Made by a program: the position numbers and the translations under genes. Below, in pieces: positions 12,431 through 14,986 of a stretch of 36,491 nucleotides of DNA. The number at the start of each line of letters is the position of its first letter. The first letter of the stretch is position 1. The DNA is taken from positions 1 through 36,491 of the forward strand of contig CALQOD010000020.1 of assembly GCA_943332105.1 (NCBI GenBank), in the 5' to 3' direction. The DNA is from Chitinophaga pinensis. Lineage in GTDB: Bacteria; Bacteroidota; Bacteroidia; AKYH767-A; OLB10. The notes beneath the pieces were generated by a model. The model made no database searches. It was given only the letters and a program-made list of their open reading frames with translations, and was not told the origin of the DNA.

Positions 12431-13660
12431 ATGATCACACAATTACCTTCGACTACTTTAAAGAAATGGCTGTTGCTGATTTCTATATTTTGCTTTTCGT
12501 TCAATTTACTAGTGTCAATTGCTTGTTGGATAATTATTGGAGTAATTACATTGGTAAATACTGAGCAACGGAAATTCATGTTCAGCAATTTCAAGAAAGA
12601 AAAATATTTATGGATTCTGCCATTATTTTATTTGTTGCATGTGGCAGGTTTACTGTGGACAGTTAATTATAATCAGGCAGGATTAGATTTGCAAATTAAA
12701 TTGACTTTATTTTTATTGCCGATAATATTTTCATCCTATCATTTTGATGATGGATTAATAAATAAAGTGAGACGTTATTTTATTGGAGGAATTCTTGTTT
12801 CTTGCGCATTGCTATTGTTTATTGCAACCAGAAGGTTTTTACATGGAGCACCTTTAACTGTTTTCTTTTACTCGGATTTATCGAGTGCTTTGATGCATCC
12901 TACTTATTTAAGCATGTATCTTAATGCTGCTGTGTTATTTGTTTTTCACGAAATGTTAGTGTCAACACATCGCCGAACAATTTGGATGGGTGCAGCTATT
13001 ATGATTGTGTTTTTTGTGATGATAGTTTTATTATCAGCACGAACTGCAGAAGCAACAGCATTTCTATCATTGCTGGTTATGATTGCGTTATATTGGAAGC
13101 AAAAAGGAAGTTATCGTTTTATTTATCCTCTTTTGTTTGTGTTTGCTGTTACTATAATATCTCAGGTTTTGGTGTTAAAATATAGCAATCGATTTGCTCA
13201 GGTAGAAAATGCAATTCAAATGAATGAAGTTGTTGCTGAAACTAGTTATAACAGCACCACTGGCCGTTTGGAAATCTGGAAAGAAACGATTTCGATATTA
13301 CCTCAACACTGGTTGTTAGGTACAGGAACAGGCGATGTGAAAGACGTTTTGAATAAAACCTATCATGAGCATGATTTTTCATACGGATACGAGAAATCAT
13401 TAAATACCCATAATCAATATTTACAATCGTTCTTAACACTTGGAATAATCGGGTTGCTGTTGTTTGTATTAGCCATTACAATTCCTTGGTTAATGCGTCA
13501 CAGTTACCATCCATTATTATTGATGTTTTTATTTATTTTTGCACTGAATTGCCTCACTGAATCCATGTTAGAAGCGCAACGCGGAGCCATCTTCTTTGCA
13601 CTCATGATTAGCATCTTCGGAAGAACTCATAAAGTAGACCCCTACGGGGACACTTTATGA
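12431..13660 (+). CDS. O-antigen ligase / polymerase family membrane protein
   Basis: 409 residues with about ten to eleven membrane helices. The large periplasmic loop contains GRLEIWKETISILPQHWLLGTG (in two parts, ~278-299) and NTHNQYLQSFLTLG (~326-339), the Wzy_C / WaaL signature with the H-N-Q-Y core. Such proteins polymerise O-units or attach the finished glycan to a carrier at the outer face of the inner membrane; the two activities cannot be told apart from sequence. The last nine residues (KVDPYGDTL) and the stop are encoded by a palindromic repeat (13626-13661), so the original C-terminus has probably been changed by repeat insertion. It lies 24 bases after the GT4 gene. Confidence 0.88.
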   Translation: MITQLPSTTLKKWLLLISIFCFSFNLLVSIACWIIIGVITLVNTEQRKFMFSNFKKEKYLWILPLFYLLHVAGLLWTVNYNQAGLDLQIKLTLFLLPIIFSSYHFDDGLINKVRRYFIGGILVSCALLLFIATRRFLHGAPLTVFFYSDLSSALMHPTYLSMYLNAAVLFVFHEMLVSTHRRTIWMGAAIMIVFFVMIVLLSARTAEATAFLSLLVMIALYWKQKGSYRFIYPLLFVFAVTIISQVLVLKYSNRFAQVENAIQMNEVVAETSYNSTTGRLEIWKETISILPQHWLLGTGTGDVKDVLNKTYHEHDFSYGYEKSLNTHNQYLQSFLTLGIIGLLLFVLAITIPWLMRHSYHPLLLMFLFIFALNCLTESMLEAQRGAIFFALMISIFGRTHKVDPYGDTL

Positions 13661-13661
13661 G
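13626..13661 (+). repeat. palindromic repeat unit, copy 1
   Basis: Outer arms CTCATAAAGT (13626-13635) and ACTTTATGAG (13652-13661) pair over 10 bp without mismatch. Inner arms CCCC (13639-13642) and GGGG (13646-13649) enclose a TAC loop. The linkers are AGA on the left and AC on the right, the same as in copy 2. The unit contains the last codons and the TGA of the O-antigen ligase gene. Confidence 0.85.
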
Positions 13662-13684
13662 AAATTATAAATTAATATTACCCT

Positions 13685-13720
13685 ACAATAAAGTAGAATC
13701 CTTCGGATACACTTTATTGT
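13685..13720 (+). repeat. palindromic repeat unit, copy 2
   Basis: Outer arms ACAATAAAGT (13685-13694) and ACTTTATTGT (13711-13720), 10 bp perfect. Inner arms ATCC (13698-13701) and GGAT (13705-13708) around a TTC loop. The layout is identical to copy 1, including the AGA/AC linkers and the AATAAAGT or CATAAAGT core, but both arms have changed together, so pairing is kept while sequence differs. The two units lie in the same orientation 23 bases apart. Confidence 0.85.
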
Positions 13721-13738
13721 GCATCATCAAATTAACCC

Positions 13739-13762
13739 ATTAGCAAATTAGCAAATTAAAAT
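13739..13762 (+). repeat. short tandem repeat before the aminotransferase start
   Basis: ATTAGCAA occurs twice in tandem (13739-13746, 13747-13754) followed by a degenerate third unit ATTAAAAT (13755-13762) that ends directly at the ATG. Function unknown; it fills the place of the 5' leader. Confidence 0.6.
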
Positions 13763-14986
13763 ATGTCTCTTATTCCCTTCGCCCCTCCTCGTATCGATGA
13801 TGAAATCATCAATGAAGTTGTTGCAACCTTACGTTCTGGCTGGATAACTACTGGTCCCAGGACAAAGCAATTCGAAAAGGAACTTTCGGCTTATAACGGT
13901 AATGCAGCCACTCTTTGTTTAAATTCTGCTACAGCAGGTTTAGAAGTTATGCTAAAATGGTTTGGTGTAAAAGAAGGTGATGAAGTAATAATTCCCGCCT
14001 ACACCTACTCTGCTACCGCTAATGTTGTTGTACATTGTGGTGCTATTCCTGTATTGGCTGATGTGAATGCTGATGATTTTAATATCAATGTTGAAAATAT
14101 CAGCAAAGCAATCACCTCAAAAACAAAAGTGATTATGCCGGTTGATATTGCTGGATATCCTTGTGATTATTACGCAATCATGAATTTGGTAAATGAGGCA
14201 ACTGTTAAATCAATGTTTGTTGCGGATGGAGAAAATCAGCAAATGCTAGGACGTATTATGGTATTGTCGGATGCGGCACATTCATTAGGCGCTTGGTATA
14301 AAGGCAAGCATACAGGTGTATGGGCTGATGCAACTGTGTATTCCTTCCATGCAGTGAAGAACTTAACAACAGCGGAAGGTGGTGCTATTGCATTGAATTT
14401 TCCAACACCTTTTAACAACGAAGAAATTTATAAATACCTCTGCATTTTTACGTTGCATGGTCAGAATAAAGATGCATTGGCTAAGATGCAGAAAGGAAAC
14501 TGGCGTTACGATATTATCGAGGCTGGTTATAAATGCAATATGACCGATTTAATGGCAGCCATCGGGTTAATTGAATTGAAACGTTATGCAAATGATACTT
14601 TAATAAAGCGTAAAGCTGTGTGTGATTATTATGCAAATAATTTTAAAAACTTCGAATGGGCGCAGCTCCCTCCTCTTAAAACGGATGATTTAGAGACCTC
14701 TTATCACCTTTATCCTTTGCGTATTAACGGAATTACCGAATCACAGCGCGATGCTATCATTCAAAAGATATTTGATGCCGATGTTAGCGTGAACGTACAT
14801 TTTATTCCGTTAGCGATGTTGTCATTCTACAAAAATAGAGGATACAATATTTCTAACTATCCTGTTACGTATGATAATTACAGTCGTGAAATATCTTTAC
14901 CGGTATTTTACGATTTAACGGAAGAGATGCTGAAACGTATTGTCGATGCGGTTACCAATGCTGTTGAATCGGTATTAAATAGTTAA
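13763..14986 (+). CDS. DegT/DnrJ/EryC1/StrS-family sugar aminotransferase
   Basis: 407 residues. The N-terminus (SLIPFAPPRIDDEIINEV, SGWITTGPRTKQFE) is the usual start of PLP-dependent sugar aminotransferases. YTYSATANVV lies at ~81-90 and the PLP-contacting Asp170 in LSDAAHSLG. The Schiff-base Lys199 is in SFHAVKNLTTAEGG. Residues ~142-164 form an insertion between VDIAGYPCDYYAIM and the LSDAAHS strand, where the family usually has about ten residues. The enzyme should transfer an amino group to a keto-sugar nucleotide. The sugar transferase start lies 1 base after its stop, which suggests that its product, an amino-sugar, is the first sugar loaded onto the lipid carrier, as in PglE/PglC pairs. 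No 4,6-dehydratase or acetyltransferase gene lies nearby. Confidence 0.9.
   Translation: MSLIPFAPPRIDDEIINEVVATLRSGWITTGPRTKQFEKELSAYNGNAATLCLNSATAGLEVMLKWFGVKEGDEVIIPAYTYSATANVVVHCGAIPVLADVNADDFNINVENISKAITSKTKVIMPVDIAGYPCDYYAIMNLVNEATVKSMFVADGENQQMLGRIMVLSDAAHSLGAWYKGKHTGVWADATVYSFHAVKNLTTAEGGAIALNFPTPFNNEEIYKYLCIFTLHGQNKDALAKMQKGNWRYDIIEAGYKCNMTDLMAAIGLIELKRYANDTLIKRKAVCDYYANNFKNFEWAQLPPLKTDDLETSYHLYPLRINGITESQRDAIIQKIFDADVSVNVHFIPLAMLSFYKNRGYNISNYPVTYDNYSREISLPVFYDLTEEMLKRIVDAVTNAVESVLNS

Follow-up and report, generated by a model that had tools for sequence, protein, structure and literature searches.

The described systems closest to the repeat analyzed here are the GTAG repeats, presented in the sections of the source drawn upon here as intergenic hairpins of 20–40 bp with subfamilies that carry alternative complementary stem residues (PMC3733652). 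According to the same sections, these repeats can supply stop codons and some of them sit at gene ends, and the phyla listed for them are Proteobacteria, Cyanobacteria, Chloroflexi and the PVC group, a list without Bacteroidetes (PMC3733652). Palindromic repeats tagged with CGTC are there assigned to five phyla, Bacteroidetes among them, and are said to have no dedicated transposase (PMC3733652). In addition, the part of a second source considered here reports that subclass 2.6 Y1 transposases of Bacteroidetes have flanking hairpins, or 'atypical secondary structures', with copies elsewhere in the genome (PMC6006769).

We analyzed a window (the whole stretch of 36 491 nucleotides) from a genome of 2.77 Mb, referred to as G000, and compared it with six other genomes of the genus (G001 to G006) and with wider collections. 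The window contains two hairpin units, one of which supplies the end of a protein.

Two hairpin units at the end of a ligase-family gene

The units and the genes around them are as follows.

12431..13660, + strand: Wzy_C (O-antigen ligase family) gene, 409 aa (PF04932, E 2.5e-21), with its last ten residues and stop within unit 1
13626..13661, + strand: hairpin repeat unit 1, 36 bp, inner stem CCCC/GGGG, outer stem CTCATAAAGT/ACTTTATGAG, encoding HKVDPYGDTL and a stop
13633..13654, + strand: constant frame AGTAG-N13-CACT of unit 1 (frame search)
13685..13720, + strand: hairpin repeat unit 2, 36 bp, inner stem ATCC/GGAT, outer stem ACAATAAAGT/ACTTTATTGT
13692..13713, + strand: constant frame AGTAG-N13-CACT of unit 2 (frame search)
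13721..13762, + strand: A/T-rich spacer that separates unit 2 from the next gene and contains an 8-nt repeat (cattagcaaattagcaaatta; read from the sequence)
13763..14986, + strand: DegT/DnrJ/EryC1 aminotransferase gene, downstream of the units and in the same direction as the ligase-family gene

Unit 1 reads CTCATAAAGT-AGA-CCCC-TAC-GGGG-AC-ACTTTATGAG and unit 2 reads ACAATAAAGT-AGA-ATCC-TTC-GGAT-AC-ACTTTATTGT. Both are imperfect palindromes of one common plan, and a repeat finder placed them 59 bp apart with 83% agreement over 30 nt. Each unit is an imperfect hairpin in which a near-constant collar connects two stems; the collar consists of AGTAG (5΄ side) and CACT (3΄ side), which pair around a bulged A. 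Folded as single-stranded RNA, unit 1 reached –18.2 kcal/mol (z –6.3) and unit 2 reached –13.4 kcal/mol (z –5.1), with none of 200 shuffled sequences folding as well in either case; the RNA folds further indicated that the hairpin is stable on either strand. The coordinates, the repeat finder and the folds agree with the initial annotation, made from the letters of the window, which had described two 36-bp palindromic units of the same plan with paired differences in their arms. A search of the window against Rfam 15 gave no matches at the gathering score.

The window pair is located in an apparent operon, in which genes for a glycosyltransferase, the ligase-family protein, the DegT-type aminotransferase and a sugar transferase follow one another in one direction. 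We take the Wzy_C family (PF04932) to include O-antigen ligases; the gene may also encode a polymerase. The C-terminus of the frame at 12431–13660 reads ...FGRTHKVDPYGDTL, and the codons ACT CAT AAA GTA GAC CCC TAC GGG GAC ACT TTA TGA correspond to THKVDPYGDTL and the stop; the TGA (13658–13660) falls within the outer arm on the 3΄ side of unit 1. The frame and its codons thus bear out the earlier claim that the first copy provides the final residues and the stop of the ligase gene.

We compared this end with those of the related genes, as had been suggested in the initial annotation. Across 24 relatives, the best match of each stops at residue 390–406 of 409, and the best matches in the six other genus members stop at 399–401 of 409; a second, weaker match on contig 214 of G002 (36% identity, with an internal stop) aligned up to residue 408. 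The nearest orthologues have different end residues: the four nearest species have the tails FGRKIKTLKH, FGRKIELNSKSSN (in two of them) and FGRKINSLAN, compared with FGRTHKVDPYGDTL in G000, the residues after FGR being KIKTLKH, KIELNSKSSN (G002 and G006) and KINSLAN. The tails of the ligase family differ among relatives in any case, and the stop of the G004 gene is supplied by the A/T spacer itself. The locus is a clear example of a repeat that supplies the end of a protein, in a gene with a tail that is variable among close relatives.

An aligned copy of unit 2 is present in G001, G002 and G006, and unit 2 is therefore probably older than the split of these lineages. Alignment of the ligase-end region across species yielded no aligned counterpart of unit 1, and no unit was found between the ligase-family gene and the aminotransferase gene in G003, G004 and G005. 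In G001, the first copy lies just behind the ligase stop, 47 bp ahead of the second copy, so the G000 frame may have reached an existing unit via a short deletion. The ligase end in unit 1 may accordingly derive from an insertion or from a deletion that removed the old stop and reached as far as an existing unit, and the two routes are equally compatible with the observations. Of the earlier proposal that an insertion had replaced the end of the ligase, the repeat-derived end stands; given the G001 copy, a deletion is as likely a route as the insertion.

Copies within and beyond the genus

The whole-genome search proposed at the outset returned more than the window pair: G000 contains five copies, among which three inner stems occur (ATCC, CCCC and GCTC). 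The exact pattern occurs at three places, and allowing one mismatch adds a copy on contig 53, in which CATT replaces CACT. So that copies would not be selected by their stem sequence, we also searched for the bare frame AGTAG-N13-CACT, which occurs at 17 places in G000, compared with 16 for a reversed control pattern. Four of these 17 matches, namely the window pair and the copies on contigs 35 and 9, have inner stems paired at 4/4 positions and outer stems paired at 5/6 or more; in the remaining 13, no more than 3/4 and 3/6 positions, respectively, are paired. The contig 9 copy carries the third inner stem, GCTC/GAGC, together with the outer stem ATGA/TCAT.

Using a covariance model (R1), we detected 13 strong window-type copies (at least 49 bits) in five of the seven genus genomes (G000, 4; G002, 3; G006, 3; G001, 2; G004, 1), 11 of which were in the alignment behind R1 and hence match by construction; the two others are on contigs 55 and 58 of G006. 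Four matches to the opposite strand of known copies and six weak matches (19–35 bits, in G001, G003, G004 and G005) were left uncounted. R1 scored only 150 first-look candidates per genome; the contig 9 copy is absent from its matches, and diverged copies may escape it. Several window-type copies occupy sites with matching flanks in two or three species.

Two of the weak matches (L118 and L119, in G003/G005) revealed a sister family with a frame of the same length as the window type, AGTAG-N-GCT-GAAAW-AGC-N-CACT. Allowing up to two mismatches, this pattern gave 69 matches, of which G005 has 53 and G003 has 16, and the remaining five genus genomes have none. The five copies in G000, the 13 strong genus matches and the 69 sister matches substantiate the earlier suggestion of a repeat family. 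Neither outcome named in the initial annotation as refuting, a total of two copies in the genome or equal residues at the ends of ligase orthologues that lack the repeat, was obtained. The number of copies per species ranges from 1 to 53 within the genus, and insertion, duplication and loss could hence be traced in close relatives. At the start of one G005 contig (L212:1-272, G005:C37), three altered units (AGGAG...CCCT) recur with a 125-bp period.

In wider contig collections, from which records of G000 itself were possibly excluded, the window-type pattern matched 30 stretches of genome contigs and 3 of viral contigs. At least three of the four inner pairs were formed in 5/30 and 0/3 of these, respectively, and all five paired matches fall on contigs that appear to be those of G002, G004 and G006. 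At the order level (42 genomes), six genomes from other genera contained eight window-type matches; read by eye from the printed letters, none of these had all four inner positions paired. At the class level, a search of 395 genomes for exact matches to the sister pattern, with G000 as the sole genus member in the sample, gave none. Within the collections searched, the repeat family is confined to one genus. Among the publications listed in literature searches, none recognisably described this hairpin repeat.

Paired changes in the stems

In the set of 11 window-type copies, both sides had changed at 5 of the 15 pairs, and none of 500 shuffles reached the observed covariation. In a joint alignment of 46 distinct rows from both families, the covariation was 0.360, compared with 0.166 for shuffled alignments (0/500 shuffles as high); slid registers reached no more than 0.093. 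Of the five measures used, two (pairs changed on both sides and further pair types) were no higher than in the shuffles, and the inner-stem changes mostly reflect a single inherited difference that separates the window-type from the sister family.

The cleanest test comes from the sister outer arms, since the copies had been found without them. Twelve of 65 copies were removed before counting; in these, the beginning of another hairpin takes the place of the 3΄ arm. In the 53 unfused copies, 265 of 318 cells of the outer stems were Watson–Crick pairs, compared with a shuffled mean of 213 and a maximum of 240 (10 000 shuffles), and the 34 distinct arm pairs gave 154 of 204 (shuffled mean 126, maximum 148), where the shuffles take the copies as independent and ignore kinship among them. 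The outer arms present include ATGA/TCAT, ATGC/GCAT, CTAA/TTAG and GTAA/TTAC, and wobble pairs weakly favor the minus strand (15 versus 10 cells). The inner and outer stems may alter their sequence provided that pairing holds, and the hairpin fold is very likely under constraint. Of the view put forward in the initial annotation, that compensated changes point to selection on the hairpin, the paired changes themselves are supported: they exceed those of the shuffles.

The 12 fused sister units (at L132, L145, L152, L182 and others) are mosaics, their 3΄ arm being another hairpin of the CCTGACGATAACTGTCAGG type. Further palindromes, TCCCGATAGCTATCGGGA and CCTCGACAAGCTCGG or similar types, lie beside units at four loci (L032, L033, L187 and L061).

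Arrangement of the copies and genes nearby

Neighboring copies within 300 bp of each other were on the same strand, head to tail, in 24/24 pairs, 11 of which were spaced by 45 or 38 bp, and there were no inverted doublets (REPIN/BIME) among these 24 pairs. More distant neighbors on one contig shared the strand in 11/17 cases. When simple open reading frames of at least 100 aa were used as gene calls, 59 of the 66 sister copies read with flanks lay outside called frames, and 7/66 lay inside frames of 120–150 aa that run through repeat clusters. Among the 46 sister clusters, the 3΄-side gene reads into the hairpin in 32 of the 43 with a called gene (two-sided P ∼ 0.002), and the 5΄-side gene exhibited no bias (16/41 parallel, P = 0.21); the 38 clusters with both neighbors called comprise 10 convergent, 23 tandem and 5 divergent arrangements. 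The orientation of the window pair is opposite to the usual sister one, in that the 3΄-side gene runs along with the units, and window-type copies, orthologues included, have no clear preference (four +|+, four –|–, one in a gene and three partly known).

An orthologous gene in G003 and G005 terminates at a sister unit (L139/L152), its stop coming from the 5΄ outer arm right before AGTAG. This stop is TGA in G003 and TAA in G005, and the outer stem shows a paired change between L139 and L152, GTGA/TCAC versus GTAA/TTAC. Frames of paralogous secreted-looking proteins recur beside sister copies (L134, L136, L138, L145, L180 and L182); reading them by eye, we take them to be secreted proteins with a C-terminal sorting tail, rather than transposases.

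Short-period spacers lie upstream of copies at six loci (L003, L030, L033, L134, L148 and L177), and a spacer of this kind also occupies 13721–13762 of the window. Spacers of the window clade have an 8-nt period (caaattat/cattagca; mean lag match 0.43, 12 copies) and those of G003/G005 have a 7-nt period (gaaccat, aacccta; mean lag match 0.37, 30 copies). Copying of the right arms from the adjacent spacer was not supported: 2/30 arms occurred in their own upstream 60 nt, compared with 2.5 expected.

Possible explanations of the conserved fold

We consider that there is about an even chance that this is a REP-like, intergenic, genus-confined hairpin repeat with a fold that is probably kept as a 3΄-end RNA structure, its mobility and function being putative. 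The hairpin would be retained because its folded form acts within transcripts. Most likely it would lie at the 3΄ end of the mRNA whose gene reads into it, and would shield or trim this mRNA. New copies would arise through local head-to-tail duplication, plus occasional dispersal by some further activity, and at the ligase-family gene an insertion or short deletion would have carried the reading frame into the unit. Both the RNA role and the spreading route are what we infer. Five copies in its own genome are few for a REP, which argues against this reading, as do the unusual orientation of the window pair and its place in an apparent operon, the missing orientation preference of window-type copies, the missing bias of the 5΄-side genes, the weak strand preference of wobble pairs and the two covariation measures that do not rise above the shuffles.

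A different interpretation, possible and put forward tentatively, is that the near-constant collar with its bulged A is read by a putative protein and sits between two freely changing paired stems, as in a cassette. Such a unit, with no transposase linked to it, would multiply within clusters in a single orientation and would alter protein C-termini where gene ends enter it. Inner stems differ by lineage within the genus (ATCC, CCCC, GCTC and TGCT types), and the frame length is constant.

It is rather doubtful that the repeat is a true REP. In that case, a Y1 (TnpA-REP/RAYT) transposase would act on the hairpin in trans and be guided by GTAG, and the fold would persist because the transposase recognizes it. 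GTAG is indeed found one base ahead of the inner stem in 50/50 aligned rows, most of which were selected by a pattern containing GTAG, and the repeat is a short intergenic palindrome that is multi-copy in G005 (53) and G003 (16), with only 5 copies in its own genome. Published GTAG repeats likewise supply stops, some at gene ends, in the sections cited above (PMC3733652). Y1 transposases are present in 7/7 genus genomes (14 matches); however, a search of the fetched flanks in the seven genomes with two sequence patterns found units of either family at 0/14 Y1 loci, several of which adjoin other hairpin types, and GTAG lies within a longer stem rather than at the end of the element. The transposase link suggested in the initial annotation was therefore not borne out, although Y1 genes exist in the genus, and we limit the label to 'REP-like'.

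At eight loci (L068, L069, L070, L071, L073, L074, L102 and L103), Y1 genes adjoin other hairpins, often arrays, of the AGCTCCGTAGGAGCG, CGCCCCTACAGGGCG and CAACCCCGCNNNGCGGGGTTG types. Judging by eye from these hairpins, there are apparently several REP-like systems within this single genus.

A bidirectional transcription terminator or attenuator between polysaccharide operon genes would suit a hairpin that is stable in both strands and sister copies that lie mostly after genes. We nevertheless regard it as unlikely, because a scan for terminators, defined by a G+C-rich stem with a T run behind it, found no + strand site at either unit and a single weak – strand match (13651–13638, in unit 1), genes of the same pathway carry on downstream in the same direction, and three species (G003, G004 and G005) have no unit at this place.

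Template-switch correction of quasi-palindromes yields paired changes without function. The arms could thus match without selection, through such correction during replication or through gene conversion between copies, and some orthologous copies do differ on only one side. Correction should, however, erase the bulge, yet the bulged A is present in 50/50 aligned rows and the adjoining G–C pair in 45/46 distinct rows, most rows having been selected by a pattern that contains the bulged-A frame; the spacer comparison (2/30 right arms versus 2.5 expected) also argues against this explanation, which we hold to be improbable. Chance palindromes, as the few copies in the window's own genome might suggest, are already contradicted by the fold z-scores of both units, by the own-genome frame scan that is independent of stem sequence, and by the copies at orthologous sites in other species together with the sister family.

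Comparison with known systems

The repeat is of a known general kind, with an uncommon plan and a low copy number in G000. Like the CGTC-tagged repeats, which are said in the sections of the source used here to lack a dedicated transposase (PMC3733652), it occurs in Bacteroidetes and showed no linked transposase in the flanks searched at the 14 Y1 loci; unlike them, it shows by eye no CGTC tag at the two ends of the 38-nt rows of the alignment. With the hairpins of subclass 2.6 Y1 transposases, again as described in the part considered, it shares a Bacteroidetes host and copies around the genome (PMC6006769), whereas several Y1 genes of this genus adjoin arrays of other hairpins, for example AGCTCCGTAGGAGCG, and units were found at 0/14 Y1 loci. 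The likeness to GTAG-tagged REPs, within the sections drawn upon, comprises intergenic hairpins of 20–40 bp, alternative stems, an occasional gene end or stop and, in rows mostly selected by a pattern containing it, a nearby GTAG (PMC3733652). In contrast to these REPs, our GTAG lies within a longer stem, a second variable stem lies outside it, no cognate Y1 gene was found among the 14 loci tested, and the copies form head-to-tail clusters. The present results add to the Bacteroidetes a covariation-supported family of hairpin repeats that is REP-like and that two defining REP features, a linked transposase and inverted doublets, set apart from REPs proper.
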